Below are positions 11,793-64,000 of a stretch of 64,000 nt of DNA, one piece after another. The notes beneath the pieces are model-generated. The model made no database searches. It was given only the letters and a program-made list of their open reading frames with translations, and was not told where the DNA came from. Numbering within the stretch: position 1 is the first letter of the stretch; each line of letters begins with the position of its first letter. The position numbers and the translations under genes are program-made. The stretch comes from Lumbricus rubellus (lineage: Eukaryota; Annelida; Clitellata; Crassiclitellata; Lumbricidae), in NCBI GenBank assembly GCA_945859605.1, contig OX243814.1, positions 37,260,524 through 37,324,523 on the forward strand, in the 5' to 3' direction.

Positions 11793-12054
11793 TTGTCGTG
11801 GTTATATTAAATGATTATCAAATTAAACACTTGCTATGCATGTATAATTATTAATTATAAGTAGAAGTTAAGCTAGGCAATTTAATTGGCGAGTTTAGGT
11901 AATATGTGTGGCAACATATAAAATATTAATACATAAAACCAATGACTGCAGCTAAGCGTAATAACGAGTGGTCAAGATTACCATGACAACAAAGGACGCT
12001 AATCCTATTCGTGATTGGTGCAAACTGGAGGCGAATGACGTGACGAGTTAAAAA

Positions 12055-12062
12055 TGACGTCA
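12055..12062 (+). promoter_or_regulatory. CRE (TGACGTCA) in LTR U3
   Basis: A perfect palindromic CREB/ATF consensus just downstream of a second half-site (TGACGTGACG). It is present at the same LTR position in the other copies read (for example 13547-13554). A role in LTR transcription is inferred from the motif alone. Confidence 0.45.
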
Positions 12063-12768
12063 GCGAAGTGGACGTTAAGTTTTTGACTCTCTACAGGTAT
12101 ATCTGGAAATGGTGGTTGATTCGCTGCGGTGATCAATCCAAAGTTGTGATTTCCAGAGTAGAGACGAAGGTAATTGAACTGTTCGGACGATCAACCGATA
12201 GTTCAAAGTATTGTGCATTAAGTGCAACGCAATTTAAATGAGAAATTTGCGTTAGTGCATAATAATCATCGTGTGAAGTGTGAGACACTTGCGAAGAAGA
12301 CGAACTCTTAGGCAACAGTCTGAAGAGTCGTGTAATTTGAATCGGCTAGCGAACAGCTGATTCGGCGTGTGAAGTACGAGGGACGTTTGGTCAACTGGAG
12401 AAGAGCTGTGAGGTGAATGCGACGATTCATCTTGTGTGCAACTGATTCACGGCAAGATACGAGTAAGGCGATTGGTGTGGTTGCTTCCATGACTGCATTT
12501 CAACCGTCTGATCAACATTCTTGACTGCGAAGAATCGGACGACGGAGAGAGCCGAAGACATTCGAGTTTCATACAACTCGACAGATAAGCGCAAATATAA
12601 TATTTCCTAAGTAACTCGCCACACTAGGTAAATAGGATTGTTATTTGTTTGTGCATATGAATGATATTGAATAACTTTATATTATATATATTTCATAAGA
12701 ACAGGGAGTTTGTTGAATTTGGAAGAATTTCTTGAGTAAGTTAAACCCAACCGATTAACCACTAGGAT

Positions 12769-12774
12769 AATAAA
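12769..12774 (+). promoter_or_regulatory. LTR polyadenylation signal AATAAA
   Basis: The hexamer lies in GGATAATAAAGTGCCC near the 3' end of the LTR and recurs in most copies. In the partial LTRs at 48270-48330 and 51765-51825 the same place reads GGATAAAAAGTG and the signal is lost. Confidence 0.5.
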
Positions 12775-12807
12775 GTGCCCTTTTACACGGGATACGACAA
12801 CCATAGT

Positions 12808-13815
12808 TGTCGTATCCCGTGTAAAAGGGGCACTTTATTATCCTAGTGGTTAATCGGTTGGGTTTAACTTACTCAAGAAATTCTTCCAAATTCAACGAAC
12901 TCCCTGTTCTTATGAAATATATATAATATAAAGTTATTCAATATCATTCATATGCACAAACAAATAACAATCCTATTTACCTAGTGTGGCGAGTTACTTA
13001 GGAAATATTATATTTGCTCTTATCTGTCGAGTTGTATGAAACTCGAATGTCTTCGGCTCTCTCCGTCGTCCGATTCGTCGCAGTCAAGAATGTTGATCAG
13101 ACGGTTGAAATGCAGTCATGGAAGCAACCACACCAATCGCCTTACTCGTATCTTGCCGTGAATCAGTTGCACACAAGATGAATCATCGCATTCATCTCAC
13201 AGCTCTTCTCCAGTTGACCAAACGTCCCTCGTACTTCACACGCCGAATCAGCTGTTCGCTAGCCGATTCAAAATTACACGACTCTTCAGACTGTTGCCTA
13301 AGAGTTCGTCTTCTTCGCAAGTGTCTCACACTTCACACGATGATTATTATGCACTAACGCAAATTTCTCATTTAAATTGCGTTGCACTTAATGCACAATA
13401 CTTTGAACTATCGGTTGATCGTCCGAACAGTTCAATTACCTTCGTCTCTACTCTGGAAATCACAACTTTGGATTGATCACCGCAGCGAATCAACCACCAT
13501 TTCCAGATATACCTGTAGAGAGTCAAAAACTTAACGTCCACTTCGCTGACGTCATTTTTAACTCGTCACGTCATTCGCTTCCAGTTTGCACCAATCACGA
13601 ATAGGATTAGCGTCCTTTGTTGTCATGGTAATCTTGACCACTCGTTATTACGCTTAGCTGCAGTCATTGGTTTTATGTATTAATATTTTATATGTTGCCA
13701 CACATATTACCTAAACTCGCCAATTAAATTGCCTAGCTTAACTTCTACCTATAATTAATAATTATACATGCATAGCAAGTGTTTAATTTGATAATCATTT
13801 AATATAACCACGACA
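12808..13815 (-). repeat. LTR2, 3' LTR of E1
   Basis: 1,008 bp, TGTCGTAT...CCACGACA as read on the plus strand. It is followed by the AATA spacer and the reversed polypurine tract (13820-13829), so it is the 3' LTR of the minus-strand copy E1. It carries private changes such as CGATTCGTCGCAG and an extra A in TTCAAAATTACAC. Confidence 0.95.
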
Positions 13816-13978
13816 AATACCCTTTCTTCAAAAGTCTGTACACAGGCTTTATCAACTTATCTAATTATCAAATTACAATAACTGCTTATGCCTATGCTTA
13901 TACTACTTTACACAACATCACAACCTAACACAACTACTTCTTATCTACCTATAGTATCACCATTGATTTACTTAAATC

Positions 13979-16900
13979 TTAGGTCAATCCTCTACTTAAA
14001 TAATCGGACATTACATTATTACATCCCTTAATGTAACGTATTGTAAAACAATAATTTTGAAGGGCGAGGCTCCACCTCATGACTCTTGCATTCTTCATCC
14101 TCCCTTCTTTCATATACTGTAGTCCACAATGGTCAGTCTCGATCACAAACTCTCTTCCACACAAATATCGATCAAATCTACTGATTCCCCACATTATGGC
14201 TAAACATTCTCTTTCCTCAACTGAATATCGCATCTCTCTTTCCAACAATTTTCTACTCGCATATGCAATCGGGTGGTTTATTCCTTCATACTGCTGAATA
14301 AGAACACAACCTATCCCTTTTCCTGATGCATCTGTCTGTATTATAAATTCTTTCTCCAAGTCTGGTAACCTAAGGATTGGTGTCTTAGCTAGTGCTTCTT
14401 TCAACTGCTTAAAACTTTCACCTAACTCTTGGTTCCATTCAATATTGTTAGGAGCTAACTTTTTAGTCAAGTCACTCAACGGTGCCATCAATTCTGCACA
14501 ATGTGGAATAAACTTTCGATAGTAATTTATCGCTCCTAAAAAGCTTCTCACTTGCTTCTTCGTCTTAGGCTGTGGCATTTCCACAATCTTGTCAATAGAT
14601 TCTCCCTTAGGGCTTATATCGTCGTTGTTCAATGTATGGCCTAGGAAATCTATCTTGCCATATCCTAGTGAACATTTCTTCGGTTTCAATGTCAAATGAG
14701 CTTTTCTCACTCTTGTGAAAAACTCTCTTAACGTCTTCATGTGTTCGTTCCATCCTTTCGTATGAGCAAGAATATCGTCGACATAACTTTCTAGATTTTC
14801 AGTTCCATGTAATATTTTCCGTATCAAGCGATTATAACTGGATGCGCTATTGACTAGTCCAAATGGTAACACATTGAACTTATATAATCCGCTTGCACAG
14901 ATGAATGTGGTTAAGTCTTTTGATTCTTCGCTCATTGGTATCTGCCAATACCCTTTACAGAAATCGAACTTGCTATAGATTTTACTTCCACTGAGTTTAT
15001 TGAAAATATCCTCATTCGACATCATCGGTTCTGGATCGAATACTGTCACTTTGTTGAGTTGTTTATAATTACAGCAAAGTCTGTTACTTCCATCTGACTT
15101 TTTAACAACTACAAGCGGCGCTGCATACGCTGCTTCCGATCTTTCTATAATTCCATTATCTAGCATCGTCTCTAATTCTTTGTTTATCTCCGCTTGAAGA
15201 TGATATGGCGTTGGATAAGCTCGTAACCGAATTGGCTCATCACTCGTCAGATGAATCTCATGCTTTACCATATCTGTCCTTCCTGGCTTATCACTGAATA
15301 TGTCCTCATGTTCTCTCAGTAGTTCCCTTAATTCTCTTTTCTGTTTTTCCGTCAATTTAGGATTGATATCCACATCTTTGTAAGTCTCCGTTTGTTTACT
15401 TACATATAAGCTCAATATCTCTTCTTCTTCATCTTCACCATCTTTACCATCATGTACTATCGCCGATATGTATGCTGACGTTTCTACATCATTACCTTCT
15501 CCATTTCTCTCGTAGTACTTCTTTAGTATATTGATGTGATATGTTTTGAGTTTTCCACCATCAATTTCCACCTTGTAATCATAATCTCCTATTTTGCCTC
15601 TGACCACAAATGGTCCTTGCCATTTTACAAGCATCTTATTGTTACAACTGGGTAACAGTAATAAAACTTTATCTCCTATCTTCAACTCTCTGTAACGTGC
15701 TTTCTTATCATAATACTTCTTGTTCTTTTCATTTGCTTTATGTATGGCCTTCTGTGCCATATCACATGTTTCTTCTATTCTTTCTCTCAAATCGGTCATG
15801 TATGTATAAACATCTTTTACTTCATCTTCCACTTTCTCATTTGTCCAGAGTTCCTTCAATATCTGTATTGGTCCTCTGCATGACCTTCCAAAAATTAATT
15901 CAAAGGGTGTGAACCCATGACTTTCGTGTACAGTGTCTCGTAACGCGAACAATAATGGTGCTAAGAACCTGTCCCATTCCTTGACCTGTTCTCCTATTAG
16001 CTTCCTCAACGTTGCTTTTATTGTTCCGTTAAGTCTCTCCACACATCCATTTCCCATAGCATGGTAAGGACTAGTGAAAGTGTGCTTGATCAACAACATC
16101 TTGTTAACATCAGCCATCAGTTCTGAAGTGAATTGGCTCCCTCTGTCAGTATGGATTTTCTGAGGAACACCCATGCGACAATAAAAATTGAACAAGGCTT
16201 CCGCCACCTCCTCTGTAGTTATTCCTTTCAGTGGAATCGCTTCTGGGTATCTGGTACTCAAATCCACTATCGTTAATATATAGCGATAACCTCTTGATGA
16301 CATAGGTTCTATCACTCCGATAATGTCTACACAGACATGTTTGAATGGTACATCCAGTACCGGAAGATGTCCCATCGGTGCTCTGTGGCTCACCTTTTTA
16401 TCCACCGACTTTTGGCATACATCACAACTCAGGACATACCTTTTAATTTCTTGTCCTATCGATGGCCAATAAAATTCATTCACAATTTTATCATGGGTCT
16501 TCTTCATACCCAAATGTGCTGACAATAGCGAGTTATGGGCCACGGCTAATACTTTACCTCTAAGTTCCTTCGGGACCATTAACTGCCACTTCGCATCATC
16601 TTCCGTTGTCTCCATGAATCTCCTATACAAAAATCCGTTCTTCTTCACATAAAGAACTTTCTCTGTTACACTGTCATCACCACTCCAATCAATTGCTTTA
16701 TCCCAAAACTTCTTCAAAGTCTCATCTTTGCTTTGTAACTCTTTAATTTCTTTTGTTGATACATTTAAATCCGGCATCTCAGTAACTTTCAACTGTTTGT
16801 ATTTTGTTACTTTCTTTGATTCCGCTCTGGTTTCAACTGCTGCTGTCGTTTGGCACACATCATCATTCTCGATGACGTCATCCGTTACATCATCATTTAA

Positions 16901-18805
16901 TTCACTTGTGATTTCACTCGCAAAATGAACTTTCTTTTTGTCACTTTGTCCTTGTGACTCAACACTTAAAGATTTCTGAATCTTTTTCAATCTATCCTCT
17001 CTATTCTCGTTATCATCTGTATCACTCCGATCACAGTTTATCATGTTATCTGTAGTTTCTTTCACTACCAGATATTTTAGTCCCTTCATCCTACCGATAA
17101 TTACTGGTTTCACCGGTTCTTCCATCACCATTGCTTCAACGTTTCCTGTAAAATACTCACTTTCAATATTAACCTTTGCTGTCGGAAAATTTCTCAATGT
17201 CCCATCGATTAATATGCATTGGGCTTCTCTTCCTGTGAAATCAACATCATTTACCAGTGATCTCTTGACAATACATGTGCTTGACCCAGAGTCATATAGA
17301 CAACTGGCATTCACACCGTTCACCTTTAGCTGACCTTCATTTTTATTCTCAAGGTCATCGCCATCATCTCTCCGATCAGTAACCATTGTACTTGCTGCCA
17401 ACTGTATCGGTAATTCCTTCTTACGTTCTTCCTCTTTTTCAACTTCATTTAGTTTCAACTCTTCATTTGCTTGCGCTATCTTGTACGCCCTATTCTCATA
17501 TACTTGTATAGCCGCCGCAGTATGTTTAACAACTCCTTTTTGTTTGTGTGAACAATCATATGACTTGTGTCCGGTTCGGCCACATGAGAAACAAGTTATC
17601 TTATGTTCAGCCGCCTGTTCTCTTTCTCTACTAAATCCTCTATTCATACTTCCATTATGATTCGTCTCCCTGTTCTGTTTCATGTCTCCTCGTCCTCTAT
17701 TTATGTTTCCATTAAACCTCTCTCTTGATTTATCGTCGAACGGTTTCATATTCGGCCTTTCGTTACTGAATTTCACTGGAGGCCTTAGATTACTTTCTGT
17801 GTATTTATATCCGTGCGCCTCGATATAAGACTCGGCACAGTTTAATGTGTCCTCTAGACTCATCTTGCCTCTTTCTTTGAGGAACATCTTAAGTTCATTG
17901 CTACACGTAAGGTAGAACTGATCTCTTAATAATAAGTTTTCCATTCCTTCGTAGGTTTTCTCGAATCCAGCTTGAAGTAGCCACTGCTGCATATATCTCC
18001 TCAATCTATGCACAAAATCTGTAGGTGTTTCACCTGACTCCATTTTACTCATCTTGAATTTGTTACGATATCCACCCTCTGTTAATTGAAACCTTTTTAA
18101 CAGATGTCTTTTCAAACACTCGTAATCTTGTGTCTCCTCAGATGACATTCTTTGATATACCTCTAAGGCTTTTCCTTCGAGATGCTTGGCTAGCATCAGA
18201 GACCAATTCTCTGTTGCTATCTCGTATGCCGTGCATGTCCTTTCAAATCTTAATAAATATGCATCCAAGCAATCTTTATTCTCATTGAATACAGGGAATT
18301 TTATATCTTTCATTCCTCTGTTATGGTTACTGTTTCCTTGATATGAACCATCACCAACCGTTGTGAATGTGGCCTCACCACGATTCTGATTATTCCGAGA
18401 ATCAATTTCTCTCATCCTCAATTCACACTCAAGCTTCTTGACCTCAAGATCCATTTCTCTCCTAGCTTGACATTCGGCCGCTTCACGAACTAATCTCGCA
18501 TCATTCGATTCTCGTTCCAGTCTGGCGTCATTCGCCTCTCTTTCAAGCCTTGCATTATTCGCTTGACTTTCTCGTTCTCGTTCAAGCCTAGCATCAGCTA
18601 TTCTTGCTAACTCTAATTCTTGTGCTCTGGCTGCTTTAATTTCTGCAGCCGCGGCCTCATCTTTAAGCCTTCGATCTTCTCGGTCCCGCAGTCTGTCGTC
18701 TCTTGCTTCCTGCTGTCTATCACGCACAAACGTCTTCAACTCATCACCATCCATCCCCATCTCTTTAGCGAGTTTAACGCACTGTTCATGTTCTCCAAGT
18801 GACAT
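13979..18805 (-). CDS. E1 Gag-protease-integrase-RT-RNase H polyprotein
   Basis: An intact 1,608-codon ORF. In order it has a charged coiled coil (to about 145), Gag, CCHC knuckle (CFSCGRTGHKSYDC), protease active site (YDSGSS), integrase HHCC finger, DDE core, GPF module, RT (YVDD) and RNase H. Gag and Pol are in one frame with no frameshift or stop between them. It differs from E3 in the amino-terminus (MSLGEHEQC and fewer Ala-rich repeats) and has one more Asp in ENDDVCQ. The start codon context is GACCATGTC. All catalytic residues are present; the break is outside the ORF, in the missing 5' LTR. Confidence 0.93.
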   Translation of the reverse strand: MSLGEHEQCVKLAKEMGMDGDELKTFVRDRQQEARDDRLRDREDRRLKDEAAAAEIKAARAQELELARIADARLERERESQANNARLEREANDARLERESNDARLVREAAECQARREMDLEVKKLECELRMREIDSRNNQNRGEATFTTVGDGSYQGNSNHNRGMKDIKFPVFNENKDCLDAYLLRFERTCTAYEIATENWSLMLAKHLEGKALEVYQRMSSEETQDYECLKRHLLKRFQLTEGGYRNKFKMSKMESGETPTDFVHRLRRYMQQWLLQAGFEKTYEGMENLLLRDQFYLTCSNELKMFLKERGKMSLEDTLNCAESYIEAHGYKYTESNLRPPVKFSNERPNMKPFDDKSRERFNGNINRGRGDMKQNRETNHNGSMNRGFSREREQAAEHKITCFSCGRTGHKSYDCSHKQKGVVKHTAAAIQVYENRAYKIAQANEELKLNEVEKEEERKKELPIQLAASTMVTDRRDDGDDLENKNEGQLKVNGVNASCLYDSGSSTCIVKRSLVNDVDFTGREAQCILIDGTLRNFPTAKVNIESEYFTGNVEAMVMEEPVKPVIIGRMKGLKYLVVKETTDNMINCDRSDTDDNENREDRLKKIQKSLSVESQGQSDKKKVHFASEITSELNDDVTDDVIENDDVCQTTAAVETRAESKKVTKYKQLKVTEMPDLNVSTKEIKELQSKDETLKKFWDKAIDWSGDDSVTEKVLYVKKNGFLYRRFMETTEDDAKWQLMVPKELRGKVLAVAHNSLLSAHLGMKKTHDKIVNEFYWPSIGQEIKRYVLSCDVCQKSVDKKVSHRAPMGHLPVLDVPFKHVCVDIIGVIEPMSSRGYRYILTIVDLSTRYPEAIPLKGITTEEVAEALFNFYCRMGVPQKIHTDRGSQFTSELMADVNKMLLIKHTFTSPYHAMGNGCVERLNGTIKATLRKLIGEQVKEWDRFLAPLLFALRDTVHESHGFTPFELIFGRSCRGPIQILKELWTNEKVEDEVKDVYTYMTDLRERIEETCDMAQKAIHKANEKNKKYYDKKARYRELKIGDKVLLLLPSCNNKMLVKWQGPFVVRGKIGDYDYKVEIDGGKLKTYHINILKKYYERNGEGNDVETSAYISAIVHDGKDGEDEEEEILSLYVSKQTETYKDVDINPKLTEKQKRELRELLREHEDIFSDKPGRTDMVKHEIHLTSDEPIRLRAYPTPYHLQAEINKELETMLDNGIIERSEAAYAAPLVVVKKSDGSNRLCCNYKQLNKVTVFDPEPMMSNEDIFNKLSGSKIYSKFDFCKGYWQIPMSEESKDLTTFICASGLYKFNVLPFGLVNSASSYNRLIRKILHGTENLESYVDDILAHTKGWNEHMKTLREFFTRVRKAHLTLKPKKCSLGYGKIDFLGHTLNNDDISPKGESIDKIVEMPQPKTKKQVRSFLGAINYYRKFIPHCAELMAPLSDLTKKLAPNNIEWNQELGESFKQLKEALAKTPILRLPDLEKEFIIQTDASGKGIGCVLIQQYEGINHPIAYASRKLLEREMRYSVEERECLAIMWGISRFDRYLCGREFVIETDHCGLQYMKEGRMKNARVMRWSLALQNYCFTIRYIKGCNNVMSDYLSRGLT

Positions 18806-19130
18806 GGTCTACTTACTTGTTTACTTAGTTAACAAGTATTTCAAATAGCTTTCGCTATATAAGAATTAAATTCTTCAAAAGATAATCTTTAAAATAAGAC
18901 TAATAAAATGTCTCCTCTTGAGATGCGTACTCTATGGTTACGCGAGGTTAATCGTACTAAACAATTCGCATCGAGTAAACGCTTATTAATAAAGTCGTTC
19001 TTTCGCAATCGCAAAAGCGATAACTTTAAAACTATACATTTTCAATACTTGAGATTATTGTTCGTTGTTATTTCGAGTGTTAGTTAAAATCCAGTTTTAA
19101 TATTCCGGAACGTAGGACCCCATAGTTGTC

Positions 19131-21274
19131 AACTGATGGCTGATGTTAACAAGATGTTGTTGATCAAGCACACTTTCACTAGTCCTTACCATGCTATGGG
19201 AAATGGATGTGTGGAGAGACTTAACGGAACAATAAAAGCAACGTTGAGGAAGCTAATAGGAGAACAGGTCAAGGAATGGGACAGGTTCTTAGCACCATTA
19301 TTGTTCGCGTTACGAGACACTGTACACGAAAGTCATGGGTTCACACCCTTTGAATTAATTTTTGGAAGGTCATGCAGAGGACCAATACAGATATTGAAGG
19401 AACTCTGGACAAATGAGAAAGTGGAAGATGAAGTAAAAGATGTTTATACATACATGACCGATTTGAGAGAAAGAATAGAAGAAACATGTGATATGGCACA
19501 GAAGGCCATACATAAAGCAAATGAAAAGAACAAGAAGTATTATGATAAGAAAGCACGTTACAGAGAGTTGAAGATAGGAGATAAAGTTTTATTACTGTTA
19601 CCCAGTTGTAACAATAAGATGCTTGTAAAATGGCAAGGACCATTTGTGGTCAGAGGCAAAATAGGAGATTATGATTACAAGGTGGAAATTGATGGTGGAA
19701 AACTCAAAACATATCACATCAATATACTAAAGAAGTACTACGAGAGAAATGGAGAAGGTAATGATGTAGAAACGTCAGCATACATATCGGCGATAGTACA
19801 TGATGGTAAAGATGGTGAAGATGAAGAAGAAGAGATATTGAGCTTATATGTAAGTAAACAAACGGAGACTTACAAAGATGTGGATATCAATCCTAAATTG
19901 ACGGAAAAACAGAAAAGAGAATTAAGGGAACTACTGAGAGAACATGAGGACATATTCAGTGATAAGCCAGGAAGGACAGATATGGTAAAGCATGAGATTC
20001 ATCTGACGAGTGATGAGCCAATTCGGTTACGAGCTTATCCAACGCCATATCATCTTCAAGCGGAGATAAACAAAGAATTAGAGACGATGCTAGATAATGG
20101 AATTATAGAAAGATCGGAAGCAGCGTATGCAGCGCCGCTTGTAGTTGTTAAAAAGTCAGATGGAAGTAACAGACTTTGCTGTAATTATAAACAACTCAAC
20201 AAAGTGACAGTATTCGATCCAGAACCGATGATGTCGAATGAGGATATTTTCAATAAACTCAGTGGAAGTAAAATCTATAGCAAGTTCGATTTCTATAAAG
20301 GGTATTGGCAGATACCAATGAGCGAAGAATCAAAAGACTTAACCACATTCATCTGTGCAAGCGGATTATATAAGTTCAATGTGTTACCATTTGGACTAGT
20401 CAATAGCGCATCCAGTTATAATCGCTTGATACGGAAAATATTACATGGAACTGAAAATCTAGAAAGTTATGTCGACGATATTCTTGCTCATACGAAAGGA
20501 TGGAACGAACACATGAAGACGTTAAGAGAGTTTTTCACAAGAGTGAGAAAAGCTCATTTGACATTGAAACCGAAGAAATGTTCACTAGGATATGGCAAGA
20601 TAGATTTCCTAGGCCATACATTGAACAACGACGATATAAGCCCTAAGGGAGAATCTATTGACAAGATTGTGGAAATGCCACAGCCTAAGACGAAGAAGCA
20701 AGTGAGAAGCTTTTTAGGAGCGATAAATTACTATCGAAAGTTTATTCCACATTGTGCAGAATTGATGGCACCGTTGAGTGACTTGACTAAAAAGTTAGCT
20801 CCTAACAATATTGAATGGAACCAAGAGTTAGGTGAAAGTTTTAAGCAGTTGAAAGAAGCACTAGCTAAGACACCAATCCTTAGGTTACCAGACTTGGAGA
20901 AAGAATTTATAATACAGACAGATGCATCAGGAAAAGGGATAGGTTGTGTTCTTATTCAGCAGTATGAAGGAATAAACCACCCGATTGCATATGCGAGTAG
21001 AAAATTGTTGGAAAGAGAGATGCGATATTCAGTTGAGGAAAGAGAATGTTTAGCCATAATGTGGGGAATCAGTAGATTTGATCGATATTTGTGTGGAAGA
21101 GAGTTTGTGATCGAGACTGACCATTGTGGACTACAGTACATGAAGGAAGGGAGGATGAAGAATGCAAGAGTCATGAGGTGGAGCCTCGCCCTTCAAAATT
21201 ATTGTTTTACAATACGTTACATTAAGGGATGTAATAATGTAATGTCCGATTATTTAAGTAGAGGATTGACCTAA
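19131..21274 (+). pseudogene. E2 partial Pol: integrase C-terminal part, RT, RNase H
   Basis: The frame opens between the second Asp and the Glu of the integrase DDE triad, so the first two catalytic Asp are missing. Present are the catalytic Glu (GCVERLNG), the GPF module (KWQGPFVV), the complete RT with YVDD, and the complete RNase H with its four acidic residues. The first ATG (19136) is an internal Met of the polyprotein, not a native start. The frame itself is free of stops to the natural end (YLSRGLT). Confidence 0.9.
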
Positions 21275-21423
21275 GATTTAAGTAAATCAATGGTGATACT
21301 ATAGGTAGATAAGAAGTAGTTGTGTTAGGTTGTGATGTTGTGTAAAGTAGTATAAGCATAGGCATAAGCAGTTATTGTAATTTGATAATTAGATAAGTTG
21401 ATAAAGCCTGTGTACAGACTTTT

Positions 21424-21433
21424 GAAGAAAGGG
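21424..21433 (+). promoter_or_regulatory. polypurine tract of E2
   Basis: GAAGAAAGGG lies four bases (TATT) upstream of the LTR TGTCG. The same arrangement occurs in every copy with an intact 3' end. Confidence 0.75.
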
Positions 21434-21437
21434 TATT

Positions 21438-22442
21438 TGTCGTGGTTATATTAAATGATTATCAAATTAAACACTTGCTATGCATGTATAATTATTAATT
21501 ATAAGTAGAAGTTAAGCTAGGCAATTTAATTGGCGAGTTTAGGTAATATGTGTGGCAACATATAAAATATTAATACATAAAACCAATGACTGCAGCTAAG
21601 CGTAATAACGAGTGGTCAAGATTACCATGACAACAAAGGACGCTAATCCTATTCGTGATTGGTGCAAACTGGAAGCGAATGACGTGACGAGTTAAAAATG
21701 ACGTCAGCGAAGTGGACGTTAAGTTTTTGACTCTCTACAGGTATATCTGAAAATGGTGGTTGTTTCGCTGCGGTGATCAATCCAAAGTTGTGATTTTCAG
21801 AGTAGAGACGAAGGTAATTGAACTGTTCGGACGATCAACCGATAGTTCAAAGTATTGTGCATTAAGTGCAACGCAATTTAAATGAGAAATTTGCGTTAGT
21901 GCATAATAATCATCGTGTGAAGTGTGAGACACTTGCGAAGAAGACGAACTCTTAGGCAACAGTCTGAAGAGTCGTGTAATTTTGAATCGGCTAGCGAACA
22001 GCTGATTCGGCGTGTGAAGTACGAGGGACGTTTGGTCAACTGGAGAAGAGCTGTGAGGTGAATGCGATGATTCATCTTGTGTGCAACTGATTCACGGCAA
22101 GATACGAGTAAGGCGATTGGTGTGGTTGCTTCCATGACTGCATTTCAACCGTCTGATCAACATTCTTGACTGCGACGATTGGACGACGGAGAGAGCCGAA
22201 GACATTCGAGTTCAAACAACTCGACAGATAAGCGCAAATATAATATTTCCTAAGTAACTCGCCACACTAGGTAAATAGGATTGTTATTTGTTTGTGCATA
22301 TGAATGATATTGAATCACTTTATATTATATATATTTCATAAGAACTGGGAGTTTGTTGAATTTGGAAGAATTTCTTGAGTAAGTTAAACCCAACCGATTA
22401 ACCACTAGGATAATAAAGTGCCCTTTTACACGGGATACGACA
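21438..22442 (+). repeat. LTR3, 3' LTR of E2
   Basis: 1,005 bp with TGTCGT/ACGACA ends. It is followed by ACTATTT and then another complete LTR in the same orientation, with no internal region between them. Confidence 0.95.
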
Positions 22443-22449
22443 ACTATTT

Positions 22450-52938: not shown

Positions 52939-53136
52939 ATCGCTTTTGCGATTGCGAAAGAACGACTTTATTGATAAGCGTTTACTCGATGCGATTTGTT
53001 TAACCTCGCGTAACCATAGAGTACGCATTTCAAGAGGGAACATTTTATTAATCTTGTTTAAGATTATCTTTTGAAGAATTTAATTCTTGTATAGCGAAAG
53101 CTATTGGGAAATACTTGTTAACTGAGTAAACAAGTA
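52939..53136 (+). promoter_or_regulatory. 5' leader with six short perfect hairpins before the ATG
   Basis: ATCGC-TTTT-GCGAT (52939-52952), GCGTA/TACGC (53008-53026), TAATCTT-GTTT-AAGATTA (53049-53066), AAGAATT/AATTCTT (53074-53088), ATAGC-GAAA-GCTAT with a GNRA-type tetraloop (53091-53104), and TACTTGTT/AACAAGTA (53112-53136), nine bases before the ATG at 53145. The series recurs in the other leaders. A role in packaging, dimerisation or translation is inference. Confidence 0.6.
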
Positions 53137-53144
53137 AGTAGACC

Positions 53145-56100: not shown

Positions 56101-56426
56101 AACAGAGAGATACTGGTGGAGTGCAACATGATGAGAATAAGTGGAGAGATAGAACATGGAATGACAGAAAGAGGTCATATCCTGAAGTTGTTGTAAACAA
56201 AGAAGAGAATAGTGATAACTATTATAGGAGAGAAAATGAGTCACTGAAAGGAATCAGATGGAAAACTTATGGAGATCTGAATAGACGAATAGGCGAAGAA
56301 ATGAATAATAAAGATTCAGAGATCCAAAATGGTAGTACATTGAATACGATAAGAAAGCCAGAAGTAAAACAGGGAACTCATGTGTGGACCAGACGAGTGG
56401 TCAAAACAAGAGAAGAATGGGTGTAA
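53145..56426 (+). CDS. E9 ORF1: Gag-protease-HHCC finger-Arg/Asn-rich tail
   Basis: 1,093 residues. It has the coiled coil (1-170) with ANDARIERE repeats, Gag, a normal CCHC knuckle (C435 to C448), protease YDSGSS, and the integrase HHCC finger ending in CDIC at about 824-827. Similarity to integrase stops about eight residues later (DNA about 55651), where the tail unique to the derivative starts. The tail is about 259 residues, basic and Trp-containing (GWMHR, NWRNRDD, KWRDRTWNDRKR), without a hydrophobic segment. Unlike E4, the Gag-protease part is E3/E8-like. Particle and protease functions are likely kept; the tail may replace a nucleic-acid-binding function, which is a guess. The ATG has a good context (GACCATGTC). 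Confidence 0.88.
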   Translation: MSSFGEHEQWVKLAKEMGMEGDELKTYVRDRQQEARDDRLREREDRKLKDEAAAAEVKAARAREEAQAARVQELELAKIADARLEREREANDARIEREANDARIEREANDARVQREREANDARLERESRENEARLVREAAECQARREMDLEVKKLECELRMREIDSRNNQNRGEATFTMVGDGSYQGNSSHNRGMKDIKFPVFNENKDCLDAYLLRFERTCTAYEIATENWSLMLAKHLEGKALEVYQRMSSEETQDYECLKRHLLKRFQLTEGGYRNKFKMSKMESGETPTDFVHRLRRYMQQWLLQAGFEKTYEGMENLLLRDQFYLTCSNELKMFLKERGKMSLEDTLNCAESYIEAHGYKYTESNLRPPVKFSNERPNVKPFDDKSRERFNGNINRGRGDMKQNRETNHNGSMNRGFSREREQAAEHKITCFSCGRTGHKSYDCSHKQKGVVKHTAAAIQVYENRAYKIAQANEELKLNEVEKEEERKKELPIQLAASTMVTDRRDDGDDLENKNEDQLKVNGVIASCLYDSGSSTCIVKRSLVNDVDFTGREAQCILIDGTLRNFPTAKVNIESEYFTGNVEAMVMEEPVKPVIIGRMKGLKYLVVKETTDNMINCDRSDTDDNENREDRLKKIQKSLSVESQGQSDKKKVHFASEITSELNDDVTDDVIENDDVCQTTAAVETRAESKKVTKYKQLKVTEMPDLNVSTKEIKELQSKDETLKKFWDKAIDWSGDDSVTEKVLYVKKNGLLYRRFKEISKDDAKWQLMVPKELRNKVLAVAHNSLLSAHLGMKKTFDKIVNEFYWPWIGPDIRKYVLSCDICRESVDKRVKRNFKREPFKLVETRAKYMITRDRCESSDVDESKKIYRKQFIDWKNQENNYRRYKVQSKRQNGWMHRSDTDDNEVIRRNVSWNERNVNNDNRRNYRYKSRECNRNNGIDSDRSNRLNWRNRDDSNIVETMGRRYENKPWCKEIYGNESVRKQRDTGGVQHDENKWRDRTWNDRKRSYPEVVVNKEENSDNYYRRENESLKGIRWKTYGDLNRRIGEEMNNKDSEIQNGSTLNTIRKPEVKQGTHVWTRRVVKTREEWV

Positions 56427-56646
56427 AGGTGAGTTGATAAGTGTTTATGTAGGTAGGATGGATAGTTAAGAGGATTGTAAATAAATAAAAGTTGAGTTTA
56501 AGTTAAGTTGAGTTGTTTAATTAAACAGTTGTGAAATTTATGAGTAGCTAAGAAGTGAAATGAAAATTAATTCCGCACAATGAGGAGAGTGAATCATCAA
56601 TCTATAATAAAAAAACAGTATTGATTAAGTAGATGAGTTTTATTTA
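56427..56646 (+). other. E9 intercistronic spacer
   Basis: 220 bp between the two ORFs, AT-rich and noncoding. It opens with a splice-donor-like AAAG|GTGAGT right after the ORF1 stop. Related sequence lies in E4 (36443-36600) and E7 (48005-48252). Confidence 0.6.
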
Positions 56647-57273
56647 ATGAGAGTTGATATAGAAACAGTAGCATGCATATCGGCAATAGTACATGACGAT
56701 AAAGATGGTGAGAATGAAGAGGAAGAAATATTGAGTTTATATGTGAGTAAACAAAAGGAATTGATGGCACCGTTGAGCGACTTGACTAAAAAGTTAGCTC
56801 CTAACAATGTTGAATGGAACCAAGAGTTAGGTGAAAGTTTTGAGCAGTTGAAAGAAGCACTAGCTAAGACACCAATCCTTAGGTTACCAGACTTGGAGAA
56901 AGAATTTATAATACAGACAGATGCATCAGGAAAAGGGATAGGTTGTGTTCTTATTCAAAAATATGAAGGAATAAACCATCCGATAGCATATGCGAGTAGA
57001 AAACTGTTGGAAAGAGAGATGCGATATTCAGTTGAGGAAAGAGAATGTTTAGCCATAATGTGGGGAATCAGTAGATTTGATCGATATTTTTGTGGAAGAG
57101 AGTTTGTGATCGAGACTGACCATTGTGGACTACAGTACATGAAGGAAGGGAGGATGAAGAATGCAAGAGTCATGAGGTGGAGCCTTGCCCTTCAGAATTA
57201 TTGTTTTACAGTACGTTACATTAAGGGATGTAATAACGTAATGTCCGATTATTTAAGTAGAGGATTGACCTAA
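56647..57273 (+). CDS. E9 ORF2: linker fused to RNase H, RT deleted
   Basis: 208 codons in a different frame from ORF1. Residues 1-36 (MRVDIE...LYVSKQ) match the acidic linker that follows the integrase GPF module in E3. The next residues (ELMAPLSDL) match the start of the connection/RNase H region, so about 300 residues containing all of RT are removed in frame. RNase H is complete: QTDAS, RECLA, ETDHC and MSDYL carry the four metal-binding acidic residues. RNase H normally degrades the RNA strand during cDNA synthesis. A free RNase H without RT is unusual and may act in trans, or the region may be kept only for RNA signals next to the polypurine tract. How it would be translated is unclear. 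Confidence 0.85.
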   Translation: MRVDIETVACISAIVHDDKDGENEEEEILSLYVSKQKELMAPLSDLTKKLAPNNVEWNQELGESFEQLKEALAKTPILRLPDLEKEFIIQTDASGKGIGCVLIQKYEGINHPIAYASRKLLEREMRYSVEERECLAIMWGISRFDRYFCGREFVIETDHCGLQYMKEGRMKNARVMRWSLALQNYCFTVRYIKGCNNVMSDYLSRGLT

Positions 57274-57422
57274 GATTTAAGTAAATCAATGGCGATACTA
57301 TAGGTAGATAAGAAGTAGTTGTGTTAGGTTGTGATGTTGTGTAAAGTAGTATAAGCGTAGGCATAAGCAGTTATTGTAATTTGATAATTAGATAAGTTGA
57401 TAAAGCCTGTGTACAGACTTTT

Positions 57423-57432
57423 GAAGAAAGGG
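57423..57432 (+). promoter_or_regulatory. polypurine tract of E9
   Basis: GAAGAAAGGG followed by TATT and the 3' LTR, as in the autonomous copies. Confidence 0.75.
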
Positions 57433-57436
57433 TATT

Positions 57437-58439
57437 TGTCGTGGTTATATTAAATGATTATCAAATTAAACACTTGCTATGCATGTATAATTATTAATTA
57501 TAGGTAGAAGTTAAGCTAGGCAATTTAATTGGCGAGTTTAGGTAATATGTGTGGCAACATATAAAATATTAATACATAAAACCAATGACTGCAGCTAAGC
57601 GTAATAACGAGTGGTCAAGATTACCATGACAACAAAGGACGCTAATCCTATTCGTGATTGGTGCAGACTGGAAGCGAATGACGTGACGAGTTAAAAATGA
57701 CGTCAGCAAAGTGGACGTTAAGTTTTTGACTCTCTACAGGTATATCTGGAAATGGTGGTTGTTTCGCTGCGGTGATCAATCCAAAGTTGTGATTTTCAGA
57801 GTAGAGACGAAGGTAATTGAACTGTTCGGACGATCAACCGATAGTTCAAAGTATTGTGCATTAAGTGCAACGCAATTTAAATGAGAAATTTGCGTTAGTG
57901 CATAATAATCATCGTGTGAAGTGTGAGACACTTGCGAAGAAGACGAACTCTTAGGCAACAGTCTGAAGAGTCGTGTAATTTGAATCGGCTAGCGAACAGC
58001 TGATCGGCGTGTGAAGTACGAGGGACGTTTGGTCAACTGGAGAGGAGCTGTGAGGTGAATGCGACGATTCATCTTGTGTGCAACTGATTCACGGCAAGAT
58101 ACGAGTAAGGCGATTGGTGTGGTTGCTTCCATGACTGCATTTCAACCGTCTGATCAACATTCTTGACTGCGACGATTGGACGACGGAGAGAGCCGAAGAC
58201 ATTCGAGTTCAAACAACTCGACAGATAAGCGCAAATATAATATTTCCTAAGTAACTCGCCACACTAGGTAAATAGGATTGTTATTTGTTTGTGCATATGA
58301 ATGATATTGAATAACTTTATATTATATATATTTCATAAGAACTGGGAGTTTGTTGAATTTGGAAGAATTTCTTGAGTAAGTTAAACCCAACCGATTAACC
58401 ACTAGGATAATAAAGTGCCCTTTTACACGGGATACGACA
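57437..58439 (+). repeat. LTR14, 3' LTR of E9
   Basis: 1,003 bp, same type as LTR13. The 10-bp palindrome ACTATATAGT joins it to LTR15 in inverted orientation, giving a palindrome of about 2 kb. Confidence 0.95.
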
Positions 58440-58449
58440 ACTATATAGT

Positions 58450-59455
58450 TGTCGTATCCCGTGTAAAAGGGCACTTTATTATCCTAGTGGTTAATCGGTT
58501 GGGTTTAACTTACTCAAGAAATTCTTCCAAATTCAACAAACTCCCTGTTCTTATGAAATATATATAATATAAAGTTATTCAATATCATTCATATGCACAA
58601 ACAAATAACAATCCTATTTACCTAGTGTGGCGAGTTACTTAGGAAATATTATATTTGCGCTTATCTGTCGAGTTGTATGAAACTCGAATGTCTTCGGCTC
58701 TCTCCGTCGTCCGATTCTTCGCAGTCAAGAATGTTGATCAGACGGTTGAAATGCAGTCATGGAAGCAACCACACCAATCGCCTTACTCGTATCTTGCCGT
58801 GAATCAGTTGCACACAAGATGAATCGTCGCATTCACCTCACAGCTCTTCTCCAGTTGACCAAACGTCCCTCGTACTTCACACGCCGAATCAGCTGTTCGC
58901 TAGCCGATTCAAATTACACGACTCTTCAGACTGTTGCCTAAGAGTTCGTCTTCTTCGCAAGTGTCTCACACTTCACACGATGATTATTATGCACTAACGC
59001 AAATTTCTCATTTAAATTGCGTTGCACTTAATGCACAATACTTTGAACTATCGGTTGATCGTCCGAACAGTTCAATTACCTTCGTCTCTACTCTGGAAAT
59101 CACAACTTTGGATTGATCACCGCAGCGAATCAACCACCATTTCCAGATATACCTGTAGAGAGTCAAAAACTTAACGTCCACTTCGCTGACGTCATTTTTA
59201 ACTCGTCACGTCATTCGCCTCCAGTTTGCACCAATCACGAATAGGATTAGCGTCCTTTGTTGTCATGGTAATCTTGACCACTCGTTATTACGCTTAGCTG
59301 CAGTCATTGGTTTTATGTATTAATATTTTATATGTTGCCACACATATTACCTAAACTCGCCAATTAAATTGCCTAGCTTAACTTCTACTTATAATTAATA
59401 ATTATACATGCATAGCAAGTGTTTAATTTGATAATCATTTAATATAACCACGACA
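58450..59455 (-). repeat. LTR15, 3' LTR of E10
   Basis: 1,006 bp of the E3 LTR type (CTCCCTGTTC, GATTCTTCGCAG, CGCCTCCAG), followed by the polypurine tract of E10 (complement at 59460-59469). Confidence 0.95.
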
Positions 59456-59618
59456 AATACCCTTTCTTCAAAAGTCTGTACACAGGCTTTATCAACTTAT
59501 CTAATTATCAAATTACAATAACTGCTTATGCCTATGCTTATACTACTTTACACAACATCACAACCTAACACAACTACTTCTTATCTACCTATAGTATCAC
59601 CATTGATTTACTTAAATC

Positions 59619-62600
59619 TTAGGTCAATCCTCTACTTAAATAATCGGACATTACATTATTACATCCCTTAATGTAACGTATTGTAAAACAATAATTTTGA
59701 AGGGCGAGGCTCCACCTCATGACTCTTGCATTCTTCATCCTCCCTTCTTTCATATACTGTAGTCCACAATGGTCAGTCTCGATCACAAACTCTCTTCCAC
59801 ACAAATATCGATCAAATCTACTGATTCCCCACATTATGGCTAAACATTCTCTTTCCTCAACTGAATATCGCATCTCTCTTTCCAACAATTTTCTACTCGC
59901 ATATGCAATCGGGTGGTTTATTCCTTCATACTGCTGAATAAGAACACAACCTATCCCTTTTCCTGATGCATCTGTCTGTATTATAAATTCTTTCTCCAAG
60001 TCTGGTAACCTAAGGATTGGTGTCTTAGCTAGTGCTTCTTTCAACTGCTTAAAACTTTCACCTAACTCTTGGTTCCATTCAATATTGTTAGGAGCTAACT
60101 TTTTAGTCAAGTCACTCAACGGTGCCATCAATTCTGCACAATGTGGAATAAACTTTCGATAGTAATTTATCGCTCCTAAAAAGCTTCTCACTTGCTTCTT
60201 CGTCTTAGGCTGTGGCATTTCCACAATCTTGTCAATAGATTCTCCCTTAGGGCTTATATCGTCGTTGTTCAATGTATGGCCTAGGAAATCTATCTTGCCA
60301 TATCCTAGTGAACATTTCTTCGGTTTCAATGTCAAATGAGCTTTTCTCACTCTTGTGAAAAACTCTCTTAACGTCTTCATGTGTTCGTTCCATCCTTTCG
60401 TATGAGCAAGAATATCGTCGACATAACTTTCTAGATTTTCAGTTCCATGTAATATTTTCCGTATCAAGCGATTATAACTGGATGCGCTATTGACTAGTCC
60501 AAATGGTAACACATTGAACTTATATAATCCGCTTGCACAGATGAATGTGGTTAAGTCTTTTGATTCTTCGCTCATTGGTATCTGCCAATACCCTTTACAG
60601 AAATCGAACTTGCTATAGATTTTACTTCCACTGAGTTTATTGAAAATATCCTCATTCGACATCATCGGTTCTGGATCGAATACTGTCACTTTGTTGAGTT
60701 GTTTATAATTACAGCAAAGTCTGTTACTTCCATCTGACTTTTTAACAACTACAAGCGGCGCTGCATACGCTGCTTCCGATCTTTCTATAATTCCATTATC
60801 TAGCATCGTCTCTAATTCTTTGTTTATCTCCGCTTGAAGATGATATGGCGTTGGATAAGCTCGTAACCGAATTGGCTCATCACTCGTCAGATGAATCTCA
60901 TGCTTTACCATATCTGTCCTTCCTGGCTTATCACTGAATATGTCCTCATGTTCTCTCAGTAGTTCCCTTAATTCTCTTTTCTGTTTTTCCGTCAATTTAG
61001 GATTGATATCCACATCTTTGTAAGTCTCCGTTTGTTTACTTACATATAAGCTCAATATCTCTTCTTCTTCATCTTCACCATCTTTACCATCATGTACTAT
61101 CGCCGATATGTATGCTGACGTTTCTACATCATTACCTTCTCCATTTCTCTCGTAGTACTTCTTTAGTATATTGATGTGATATGTTTTGAGTTTTCCACCA
61201 TCAATTTCCACCTTGTAATCATAATCTCCTATTTTGCCTCTGACCACAAATGGTCCTTGCCATTTTACAAGCATCTTATTGTTACAACTGGGTAACAGTA
61301 ATAAAACTTTATCTCCTATCTTCAACTCTCTGTAACGTGCTTTCTTATCATAATACTTCTTGTTCTTTTCATTTGCTTTATGTATGGCCTTCTGTGCCAT
61401 ATCACATGTTTCTTCTATTCTTTCTCTCAAATCGGTCATGTATGTATAAACATCTTTTACTTCATCTTCCACTTTCTCATTTGTCCAGAGTTCCTTCAAT
61501 ATCTGTATTGGTCCTCTGCATGACCTTCCAAAAATTAATTCAAAGGGTGTGAACCCATGACTTTCGTGTACAGTGTCTCGTAACGCGAACAATAATGGTG
61601 CTAAGAACCTGTCCCATTCCTTGACCTGTTCTCCTATTAGCTTCCTCAACGTTGCTTTTATTGTTCCGTTAAGTCTCTCCACACATCCATTTCCCATAGC
61701 ATGGTAAGGACTAGTGAAAGTGTGCTTGATCAACAACATCTTGTTAACATCAGCCATCAGTTCTGAAGTGAATTGGCTCCCTCTGTCAGTATGGATTTTC
61801 TGAGGAACACCCATGCGACAATAAAAATTGAACAAGGCTTCCGCCACCTCCTCTGTAGTTATTCCTTTCAGTGGAATCGCTTCTGGGTATCTGGTACTCA
61901 AATCCACTATCGTTAATATATAGCGATAACCTCTTGATGACATAGGTTCTATCACTCCGATAATGTCTACACAGACATGTTTGAATGGTACATCCAGTAC
62001 CGGAAGATGTCCCATCGGTGCTCTGTGGCTCACCTTTTTATCCACCGACTTTTGGCATACATCACAACTCAGGACATACCTTTTAATTTCTTGTCCTATC
62101 GATGGCCAATAAAATTCATTCACAATTTTATCATGGGTCTTCTTCATACCCAAATGTGCTGACAATAGCGAGTTATGGGCCACGGCTAATACTTTACCTC
62201 TAAGTTCCTTCGGGACCATTAACTGCCACTTCGCATCATCTTCCGTTGTCTCCATGAATCTCCTATACAAAAATCCGTTCTTCTTCACATAAAGAACTTT
62301 CTCTGTTACACTGTCATCACCACTCCAATCAATTGCTTTATCCCAAAACTTCTTCAAAGTCTCATCTTTGCTTTGTAACTCTTTAATTTCTTTTGTTGAT
62401 ACATTTAAATCCGGCATCTCAGTAACTTTCAACTGTTTGTATTTTGTTACTTTCTTTGATTCCGCTCTGGTTTCAACTGCTGCTGTCGTTTGGCACACAT
62501 CATTCTCGATGACGTCATCCGTTACATCATCATTTAATTCACTTGTGATTTCACTCGCAAAATGAACTTTCTTTTTGTCACTTTGTCCTTGTGACTCAAC

Positions 62601-64000
62601 ACTTAAAGATTTCTGAATCTTTTTCAATCTATCCTCTCTATTCTCGTTATCATCTGTATCACTCCGATCACAGTTTATCATGTTATCTGTAGTTTCTTTC
62701 ACTACCAGATATTTTAGTCCCTTCATCCTACCGATAATTACTGGTTTCACCGGTTCTTCCATCACCATTGCTTCAACGTTTCCTGTAAAATACTCACTTT
62801 CAATATTAACCTTTGCTGTCGGAAAATTTCTCAATGTCCCATCGATTAATATGCATTGGGCTTCTCTTCCTGTGAAATCAACATCATTTACCAGTGATCT
62901 CTTGACAATACATGTGCTTGACCCAGAGTCATATAGACAACTGGCATTCACACCGTTCACCTTTAGCTGACCTTCATTTTTATTCTCAAGGTCATCGCCA
63001 TCATCTCTCCGATCAGTAACCATTGTACTTGCTGCCAACTGTATCGGTAATTCCTTCTTACGTTCTTCCTCTTTTTCAACTTCATTTAGTTTCAACTCTT
63101 CATTTGCTTGCGCTATCTTGTACGCCCTATTCTCATATACTTGTATAGCCGCCGCAGTATGTTTAACAACTCCTTTTTGTTTGTGTGAACAATCATATGA
63201 CTTGTGTCCGGTTCGGCCACATGAGAAACAAGTTATCTTATGTTCAGCCGCCTGTTCTCTTTCTCTACTAAATCCTCTATTCATACTTCCATTATGATTC
63301 GTCTCCCTGTTCTGTTTCATGTCTCCTCGTCCTCTATTTATATTTCCATTAAACCTCTCTCTTGATTTATCGTCGAACGGTTTCACATTCGGCCTTTCGT
63401 TACTGAATTTCACTGGAGGCCTTAGATTACTTTCTGTGTATTTATATCCGTGCGCCTCGATATAAGACTCGGCACAGTTTAATGTGTCCTCTAGACTCAT
63501 CTTGCCTCTTTCTTTGAGGAACATCTTAAGTTCATTGCTACACGTAAGGTAGAACTGATCTCTTAATAATAAGTTCTCCATTCCTTCGTAGGTTTTCTCG
63601 AATCCAGCTTGGAGTAGCCACTGCTGCATATATCTCCTCAATCTATGCACAAAATCTGTAGGTGTTTCACCTGACTCCATTTTACTCATCTTGAATTTGT
63701 TACGATATCCACCCTCTGTTAATTGAAACCTTTTTAACAGATGTCTTTTCAAACACTCGTAATCTTGTGTCTCCTCAGATGACATTCTTTGATATACCTC
63801 TAAGGCTTTTCCTTCGAGATGCTTGGCTAGCATCAGAGACCAATTCTCTGTTGCTATCTCGTATGCCGTGCATGTCCTTTCAAATCTTAATAAATATGCA
63901 TCCAAGCAATCTTTATTCTCATTGAATATAGGGAATTTTATATCTTTCATTCCTCTGTTATGGTTACTGTTTCCTTGATATGAACCATCACCAACCATTG
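59619..64000 (-). CDS. E10 Gag-protease-integrase-RT-RNase H polyprotein, N-terminus off the window
   Basis: About 1,460 residues are visible, from just before Gag to the natural end. Knuckle, protease, HHCC, DDE, GPF, YVDD and RNase H residues are all present. It matches E3, including ENDVCQ and REDRLKKIQ. The Met at 63998 is internal (FTMVGDG), not the start. Confidence 0.93.
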   Translation of the reverse strand, partial: MVGDGSYQGNSNHNRGMKDIKFPIFNENKDCLDAYLLRFERTCTAYEIATENWSLMLAKHLEGKALEVYQRMSSEETQDYECLKRHLLKRFQLTEGGYRNKFKMSKMESGETPTDFVHRLRRYMQQWLLQAGFEKTYEGMENLLLRDQFYLTCSNELKMFLKERGKMSLEDTLNCAESYIEAHGYKYTESNLRPPVKFSNERPNVKPFDDKSRERFNGNINRGRGDMKQNRETNHNGSMNRGFSREREQAAEHKITCFSCGRTGHKSYDCSHKQKGVVKHTAAAIQVYENRAYKIAQANEELKLNEVEKEEERKKELPIQLAASTMVTDRRDDGDDLENKNEGQLKVNGVNASCLYDSGSSTCIVKRSLVNDVDFTGREAQCILIDGTLRNFPTAKVNIESEYFTGNVEAMVMEEPVKPVIIGRMKGLKYLVVKETTDNMINCDRSDTDDNENREDRLKKIQKSLSVESQGQSDKKKVHFASEITSELNDDVTDDVIENDVCQTTAAVETRAESKKVTKYKQLKVTEMPDLNVSTKEIKELQSKDETLKKFWDKAIDWSGDDSVTEKVLYVKKNGFLYRRFMETTEDDAKWQLMVPKELRGKVLAVAHNSLLSAHLGMKKTHDKIVNEFYWPSIGQEIKRYVLSCDVCQKSVDKKVSHRAPMGHLPVLDVPFKHVCVDIIGVIEPMSSRGYRYILTIVDLSTRYPEAIPLKGITTEEVAEALFNFYCRMGVPQKIHTDRGSQFTSELMADVNKMLLIKHTFTSPYHAMGNGCVERLNGTIKATLRKLIGEQVKEWDRFLAPLLFALRDTVHESHGFTPFELIFGRSCRGPIQILKELWTNEKVEDEVKDVYTYMTDLRERIEETCDMAQKAIHKANEKNKKYYDKKARYRELKIGDKVLLLLPSCNNKMLVKWQGPFVVRGKIGDYDYKVEIDGGKLKTYHINILKKYYERNGEGNDVETSAYISAIVHDGKDGEDEEEEILSLYVSKQTETYKDVDINPKLTEKQKRELRELLREHEDIFSDKPGRTDMVKHEIHLTSDEPIRLRAYPTPYHLQAEINKELETMLDNGIIERSEAAYAAPLVVVKKSDGSNRLCCNYKQLNKVTVFDPEPMMSNEDIFNKLSGSKIYSKFDFCKGYWQIPMSEESKDLTTFICASGLYKFNVLPFGLVNSASSYNRLIRKILHGTENLESYVDDILAHTKGWNEHMKTLREFFTRVRKAHLTLKPKKCSLGYGKIDFLGHTLNNDDISPKGESIDKIVEMPQPKTKKQVRSFLGAINYYRKFIPHCAELMAPLSDLTKKLAPNNIEWNQELGESFKQLKEALAKTPILRLPDLEKEFIIQTDASGKGIGCVLIQQYEGINHPIAYASRKLLEREMRYSVEERECLAIMWGISRFDRYLCGREFVIETDHCGLQYMKEGRMKNARVMRWSLALQNYCFTIRYIKGCNNVMSDYLSRGLT

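Follow-up and report, generated by a model that had tools for sequence, protein, structure and literature searches.

A mixed-orientation array of retrotransposon copies in Lumbricus rubellus, probably built by end joining of finished and unfinished reverse transcripts

How could 52 kb of retrotransposon sequence come to lie in one place, as complete and partial copies in both orientations? The question is raised by a 64,000-nt stretch of the Lumbricus rubellus genome (assembly GCA_945859605.1, contig OX243814.1, positions 37,260,524 to 37,324,523 of the forward strand; hereafter the window), in which ∼11.8 kb of host-like DNA is followed, from position 11794 to the window end, almost entirely by one long terminal repeat (LTR) retrotransposon family. 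We consider it probable that this array is a concatemer of unintegrated reverse transcripts, finished and unfinished, which the host joined end to end; a break within a (TGTA)n repeat is the likely site of its capture. We infer that the capture was chromosomal and took place in one event. The LTR of the family is ∼1006 bp long (TGTCGT...ACGACA). Directly downstream of the 5′ LTRs is ACTA-TGGGGTCCTACG, which resembles a primer-binding site (PBS), and directly upstream of the 3′ LTRs is GAAGAAAGGG-TATT, the polypurine tract (PPT). LTRs, a PBS-like site by the 5′ LTR and a PPT by the 3′ LTR together identify an LTR retrotransposon.

The array was mapped against two uninterrupted copies, F (24472–31799) and M (51830–58439); positions marked "ref" are counted from the first base of the 5′ LTR of F. 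LTR matching over the whole window located 16 places, comprising 13 full LTRs (1003–1008 nt), one truncated LTR (H, 954 nt) and two short pieces of the U5 (5′ unique) end. The array was resolved into 13 blocks (lettered A to N, with J/K taken as one), nine of which have internal sequence (B, C, F, G, I, J/K, L, M and N) and four of which are LTR only (A, D, E and H). Six blocks lie on the plus strand (A, C, D, G, L and M) and seven on the minus strand (B, E, F, H, I, J/K and N). The features are as follows, with strand given for the blocks and one purine tract, and with U3 denoting the 3′ unique end of the LTR.

11680–11793: (TGTA)n microsatellite, on the host side of the left boundary, abutting the U3 end of block A.
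11794–12799, plus: block A, LTR only, with the same sequence as the LTRs of F and N.
12800–12807: A/B spacer, U5–U5, ACCATAGT; its B side is ACTATGG (2–3 nt of PBS), or the spacer is ACTA/TAGT with one substitution.
12808–19130, minus: block B, 3′ LTR and full internal region without 5′ LTR, starting 8 nt before the PBS (GACAACTA-PBS).
19131–22442, plus: block C, 5′-truncated (from ref 4016), 3′ LTR intact.
22443–22449: C/D spacer, U5–U3, ACTATTT, with the single blunt parse ACTAT/TT.
22450–23453, plus: block D, LTR only.
23454–23465: D/E spacer, U5–U5; its E side has ACTATGGGG (5 nt of PBS), and 2–4 nt are unexplained.
23466–24468, minus: block E, LTR only, with a partial PBS at its U5 end.
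24469–24471: F/E spacer, U5–U3, ATT.
24472–31799, minus: block F, complete element of 7328 bp with identical LTRs and an open 1610-aa gag-pol frame (25641–30473).
31800–31803: F/G spacer, U3–U3, AATT, which fits AA/TT.
31804–36600, plus: block G, 5′ LTR and M-related internal region, 3′-truncated.
36600–37553, minus: block H, LTR from the U3 start to ref 954, last 52 nt missing, with 2-nt microhomology to G.
37554–37559: I/H spacer, U5–U3, ACTATT.
37560–43877, minus: block I, 3′ LTR and full internal region without 5′ LTR, starting 1–2 nt before the PBS.
43878–48252, minus: block J/K, one LTR (46211–47214) between two internal regions; it contains 161 bp without counterpart and the assembly gap.
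44407–44606: assembly gap of 200 N within block J.
48253–51825, plus: block L, a defective copy whose two 78-bp terminal repeats (48253–48330 and 51748–51825) are identical.
51742–51748, plus: purine tract GAAGGA(A) directly upstream of the right-hand repeat of L, a proposed cryptic plus-strand primer.
51826–51829: L/M spacer, U5–U3, ACTT.
51830–58439, plus: block M, element of a second subfamily, both LTRs present and identical.
58440–58449: M/N spacer, U5–U5, ACTATATAGT, with the single blunt parse ACTAT/ATAGT.
58450–64000, minus: block N, LTR and internal region, continuing past the window end.

In J/K, the single LTR has PPT-side interior on one side (47215–48252) and PBS-side interior on the other (down to 43878). 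With the gap set aside, 175 nt of 11794–64000 are not covered by the reference copies; 161 of these form a single piece (48092–48252, in K) and the other 14 are spacer or joint bases. Positions 1–11793 have no match to F or M. The 161-bp piece has no blastn counterpart in F or M, and parts of it resemble the subfamily of G and M by eye; it is probably a longer variant of that subfamily and not host DNA. An earlier examination of the letters, the sequence-only reading, had described ten copies and about fifteen LTRs in mixed orientation with no host DNA between them. The array and its mixed orientation are confirmed, with only the 161 bp and the gap, apart from the spacers, not recognisable as element, while the counts become 13 blocks (nine with interior) and 16 LTR matches. 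The assembly gap with its repeated 292-bp sides, the two subfamilies and the intermediate-like copies are additions to that description.

The origin of the array is recorded most clearly at the eight joints where one LTR meets another, whose spacers sum to 54 nt. Read outward from each LTR, 52 of these 54 nt continue the element's own PBS-side or PPT-side flank, and seven of the eight spacers are accounted for completely. The flank sequences were taken from the internal sides of the LTRs, independently of the joints. Random spacer sets and sets shuffled within spacers (100,000 each) gave means of 6.5 and 8.8 nt, respectively, and none in either model reached 52, which rules out chance.

The spacers also indicate where the joined molecules ended. 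With ACTA and TATT as termini, 42 of the 54 bases are explained; ACTAT and TT explain 47, rising to 52 if read-through into the PBS is allowed. ACTAT paired with TATT likewise explains 47, but the U3 end is read as TT, since only TT fits at C/D and L/M. The C/D and M/N spacers each allow one parse only, and the termini ACTA and TATT leave the extra TA of M/N unaccounted for; the F/G spacer is compatible with TT against TT. We infer that the linear complementary DNA (cDNA) ended in TT at U3 and in ACTAT, that is, ACTA plus one PBS base, at U5. In HIV-1, the last base of the transfer RNA (tRNA) primer stays on the U5 end, and a U5 end with one PBS base is expected if the last base of the tRNA was left behind in this way. 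More of the PBS appears to be retained in two blocks, with five bases at the U5 end of E and two or three at that of B. The joints thus hold nucleotides that appear to belong to cDNA alone and would be absent from integrated copies. The spacers quoted in the sequence-only reading are present at the joints, and its principle of cDNA ends holds; its exact termini, TATT and ACTA, give way to TT and ACTAT.

The remaining four joints between blocks (B/C, G/H, I/J and K/L) have overlaps of 0–2 nt by inspection. Across all joints, microhomology is 0–3 nt and one insertion of 2–4 nt is present. Short microhomologies and small insertions, with no integrase target duplication, are the features of end joining.

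Could the copies instead have been inserted into one another by integrase, as nested insertions or by auto-integration? The family encodes integrase domains, and block F has AAT on both flanks; this 3-nt repeat is an outcome that the cDNA-end model also gives. No flank duplication of 4–8 nt was found at any of the five LTR-bounded blocks tested (A, D, E, F and M), and bases beyond TG and CA are retained at the spacers, of which integrase-trimmed ends predict, by construction, 0 of 54. The missing duplications and the untrimmed ends exclude integrase insertion for practical purposes. They also agree with the sequence-only reading, which had seen neither target duplications nor trimmed ends and had inferred that a cDNA concatemer was formed by end joining and captured; the joining is supported by the 52 explained bases, and the chromosomal capture is presumed.

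Homologous recombination or unequal crossing over between the LTRs of neighbouring integrated copies would account for J/K, with its one LTR common to two internal regions, and for the existence of LTR-only blocks (A, D and E). Alone, however, it yields neither U5–U5 and U3–U3 joints nor spacers with PBS and PPT bases, and no inter-block joint was found twice in the window. The LTR pairs are identical within F (0 differences in 1006 nt) and within M (0 in 1003), while the LTRs of F and M differ from each other at 11 sites; with identical pairs in differing copies, F and M each appear to stem from a separate reverse transcription. We therefore rejected, as the main process, unequal crossing over and the duplication of a unit in tandem, and regard LTR recombination between integrated copies as very improbable.

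An assembly product, in which the assembler wrongly attached to host sequence a concatemer from outside the chromosomes, or parts of a tangle of repeats, deserves somewhat more weight, although we still think it improbable. The sequences on either side of the 200-N gap (44115–44406 and 44607–44898) are identical over 292 bp and are probably two overlapping contig ends that were scaffolded unmerged, so that the contigs probably meet in block J and the order there rests on scaffolding. Moreover, the left boundary of the array lies within a microsatellite and the right boundary lies beyond the window. Misassembly would not, however, be expected to put joints at cDNA termini, and an extrachromosomal concatemer would be no less a product of cDNA end joining. 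At the four inverted joints the two arms also differ, by 6 (A/B), 1 (D/E), 18 (F/G) and 10 (M/N) mismatches per ∼900 nt. These differences disfavor a fold-back sequencing artefact, only weakly so for D/E, where the arms differ by just 1 mismatch and 1 gap.

A further alternative retains end joining and changes only its timing, namely several independent cDNA insertions, made over time at one fragile site. We judge it unlikely, but it is the most serious of the competing explanations. At least two subfamilies, with mosaic LTRs among the blocks, are present, and cDNA capture at breaks is already known. On the other side, three of the blocks look to be of one age: over the 5552 nt aligned (58449–64000), N has the same sequence as F, which bounds later divergence at ∼5×10−4, and the interior of I departs from that of F at a single site in 5314. 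Block I is itself a mosaic, with this F-type interior and an LTR that has 16 differences. Block B is another, matching F exactly over segments of 680 and 1628 nt, with 23 differences in the leader and 6 on the gag side. Such mosaics would fit template switching between co-packaged RNAs, and could be older. Insertion into a pre-existing array should also leave older copies split into same-orientation halves around another block, and no such block was found in the window. Later insertions of this kind were rejected by examining the five plainly truncated ends (C, G, H, J and K), none of which could be rejoined into a whole copy with another end of the same orientation lying within 60 nt; positions were entered by hand, and those of G and K are estimates. 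The lack of split copies favors a single concatemer, though it does not prove it, and the array extends beyond the window.

If the array is an end-joined concatemer, its blocks may record the state of the molecules when they were joined. They had been taken as linear cDNA copies in the sequence-only reading, which agrees with F and M, both complete, whereas several other blocks resemble reverse-transcription intermediates. In blocks B and I the interior is complete and a 3′ LTR is present, but there is no 5′ LTR; they start 8 nt (B) and 1–2 nt (I) before the PBS. This is near where the minus strand ends before second-strand transfer, and both blocks are therefore read as stalled intermediates. 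Eight block ends do not coincide with an LTR terminus (B, C, G, H, I, J, K and the left end of L); two of the eight fall within 8 nt of the PBS start, with a chance probability of 2.6×10−4 (computed with n = 9).

Block L may be a product of a different kind. Each of its 78-bp terminal repeats consists of an interior piece (ref 4287–4307) fused, via a common AAGT, to R (repeat)-U5 sequence from ref 945, and the two repeats share three differences that are absent from all 13 full LTRs aligned beside them. The left end of the repeat falls after GAAGGA or GAAGGAA. Minus-strand strong-stop DNA may have jumped to the AAGT match inside the RNA (ref 4304–4307) and not to the 3′ R, after which plus-strand synthesis would have begun at the cryptic purine tract and created new terminal repeats. 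A simple tandem duplication or a small circle was considered as the origin of L and is possible, but a complete cDNA that acquired new LTRs accounts better for its ends. Most of U3 is missing from L, as is the TATA-like site at ref 890, so it is unlikely to propagate itself. Three breakpoints, the end of H and both fused repeats of L, lie inside ref 945–954 of the LTR; this cluster suggests a special position, for example the start of R.

The proposed sequence of events is as follows. A pool of complete and incomplete cDNAs would have been end-joined by host break repair, using 0–3 nt of microhomology, and the resulting concatemer captured, probably once, at a break in the (TGTA)n repeat. F and M would be complete linear cDNAs. 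B and I may have stopped before second-strand transfer, leaving them without a 5′ LTR, and the 3′ LTR of B may still terminate in copied PBS bases. C could be a 5′-incomplete minus strand and E, by its resemblance, plus-strand strong-stop DNA; A and D would be LTR-only products. J/K could be an opened 1-LTR product, either similar to a 1-LTR circle or an LTR–LTR recombinant. G and H, with truncations unlike those of intermediates, may be broken DNA. We find the chances even that the array goes further and, as one captured concatemer, preserves a snapshot of reverse transcription in the particles of one germ cell, in which complete cDNAs lie beside molecules that stalled ahead of second-strand transfer, LTRs resembling strong-stop DNA, a 1-LTR product and a strong-stop mis-transfer product equipped with new 78-bp LTRs.

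Several observations weigh against this interpretation, or limit it. At the joints, 2–4 nt of the D/E spacer are unexplained, and the A/B spacer can also be read as ACTA/TAGT with one substitution, a parse that removes the evidence for PBS bases at the 3′ LTR of B. At the left host joint, the TT of U3 overlaps the microsatellite and proves one T at most. The window holds no tRNA gene that might supply a primer for the PBS. The order of blocks across the gap inside the array depends on scaffolding. LTR-only blocks could also arise by LTR–LTR recombination after capture, and the model predicts neither how G and H are truncated nor where J/K ends. As for L, the purine tract was spotted post hoc and its rarity is moderate: a run of at least 7 purines immediately precedes 3.6% of interior positions, and a run of at least 6 precedes 6.2%. 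The proposed jump point (ref 945–948) lies ∼55 nt below the TATA-like site, beyond the usual distance to a start site, so that R may begin upstream and the jump would then have been made from inside R.

The identity of the element was explored using domain profiles. Block I has a 1610-aa frame for a SCAN-like gag domain followed by integrase, reverse transcriptase (RT) and RNase H, in that order, all scoring above their cut-offs: the integrase zinc finger is at residues 746–802, the integrase core at 822–917, RVT_1 at 1236–1394 and RNase H at 1484–1587. A zinc knuckle in the same frame is marginally under its cut-off (20.4 versus 20.8 bits). The SCAN-like match (PF02023, cut-off 27 bits) is above threshold in I (28.3), L (28.8) and M (29.1), and below it in G (25.9). 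Integrase upstream of RT in a gypsy-like pol, together with a SCAN-like gag, is the arrangement of Gmr1. SCAN domains are reported in more than half of Gmr elements, but not in all (PMC4131045). By domain order and the SCAN-like gag, the element appears to be Ty3/gypsy and Gmr1-like.

In total, 2094 protein relatives of the RT were counted, and the 120 listed include proteins from a pseudoscorpion, a shrimp, a sea cucumber, scallops, a crinoid and a brachiopod. Among viral contigs, 18 stretches fit the search pattern and none was confirmed as a relative; Rfam gave 0 matches at the gathering score. The second subfamily, consisting of G and M (33119–36442 and 53145–57436, respectively), has a long frame with gag and the integrase zinc finger. 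This frame, 1093 aa in M, has no RT or integrase-core match among the domain profiles, and the RNase H of M sits in a separate frame. The subfamily is therefore probably non-autonomous, mobilised in trans, and dependent on other elements. Minisatellites of 27 bp in the gag leader (18494–18562, 30249–30320, 43335–43406, 45557–45667, 48884–49072 and 53403–53513) vary in copy number among array members.

Multimeric Ty1 arrays in yeast were reportedly described in 1990 by Weinstock and others. As in the array studied here, many LTR copies are joined without host DNA and a cDNA intermediate is involved. The Ty1 arrays are said to be mostly tandem direct repeats with one common LTR, made by recombination, with some rearranged copies; in contrast, the shared-LTR form is seen in 1 of 13 blocks here (J/K), and eight LTR–LTR joints, in all orientations, carry cDNA-end bases, the remainder falling at truncated ends. 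The array is thus not a tandem shared-LTR array of the yeast type. Yeast without Sgs1 forms Ty1 multimers, and an effect of Rad27 is likewise reported (PMC4378997). Integrase-independent tandem LTR arrays of plants and yeasts, similar to ours in being made without integrase, are attributed to Rad52 recombination or single-strand annealing (PMC12786077), while the LTR–LTR joints here look end-joined.

Capture at breaks provides a closer parallel. Ty1 inserts at breaks carry cDNA-only nucleotides and may derive from replication intermediates (PMC10802722), and double-strand breaks in mouse capture retrotransposon sequence and cDNA, a process termed RMDR (PMC4516963). These inserts share with the array cDNA-only nucleotides, possible intermediates, short microhomologies and no integrase duplication, but those described are fragments and complex inserts of two to four fragments, compared to at least 13 units over 52 kb, complete elements included. 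HIV-1 excised by CRISPR forms intermolecular concatemers (PMC8577360), in which retroviral DNA is also end-joined at LTRs, sense–sense or sense–antisense; as described there, they consist of excised proviral DNA, were studied as circles in cultured cells, and are not natural genomic reverse transcripts. Literature searches, judged by the titles and abstract openings listed (at most 20 per search, of up to 1,787 hits) and with few subscription journals, found no natural mixed-orientation array of LTR-retrotransposon cDNAs, which is not a claim that none exists. Ty1 multimers and capture of cDNA at breaks are known; what is likely new is a natural mixed-orientation array, which likely holds reverse-transcription intermediates.

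Work on reverse-transcription intermediates usually relies on particle or cell DNA. With such molecules preserved as sequence in an array, the cDNA termini, primer use, and strand-transfer jumps and failures of an uncultured element could be followed at single-base resolution. An array of this kind would also demonstrate that a single repair event, with no integrase, can bring many retrotransposon copies into a genome. A search for joints composed of PBS and PPT bases is a simple test that could be run over long-read assemblies to find how frequent such events are. According to a review, the transfer of the second strand at the PBS depends on alternative end joining (PMC12786077), and the proposed link to this step becomes testable. 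If the snapshot is real, failures of second-strand transfer would be recorded at the level of the genome, with the stalled molecules joined to one another by alternative end joining.

On the host side, a frame at 7411–8127 matches the first 56 positions of PF00001 (rhodopsin-type receptor) and runs into a long in-frame repeat of CTGA type. A short tandem repeat of TTACCCCCCGACCA type (11564–11659) lies immediately left of the (TGTA)n tract and the array.

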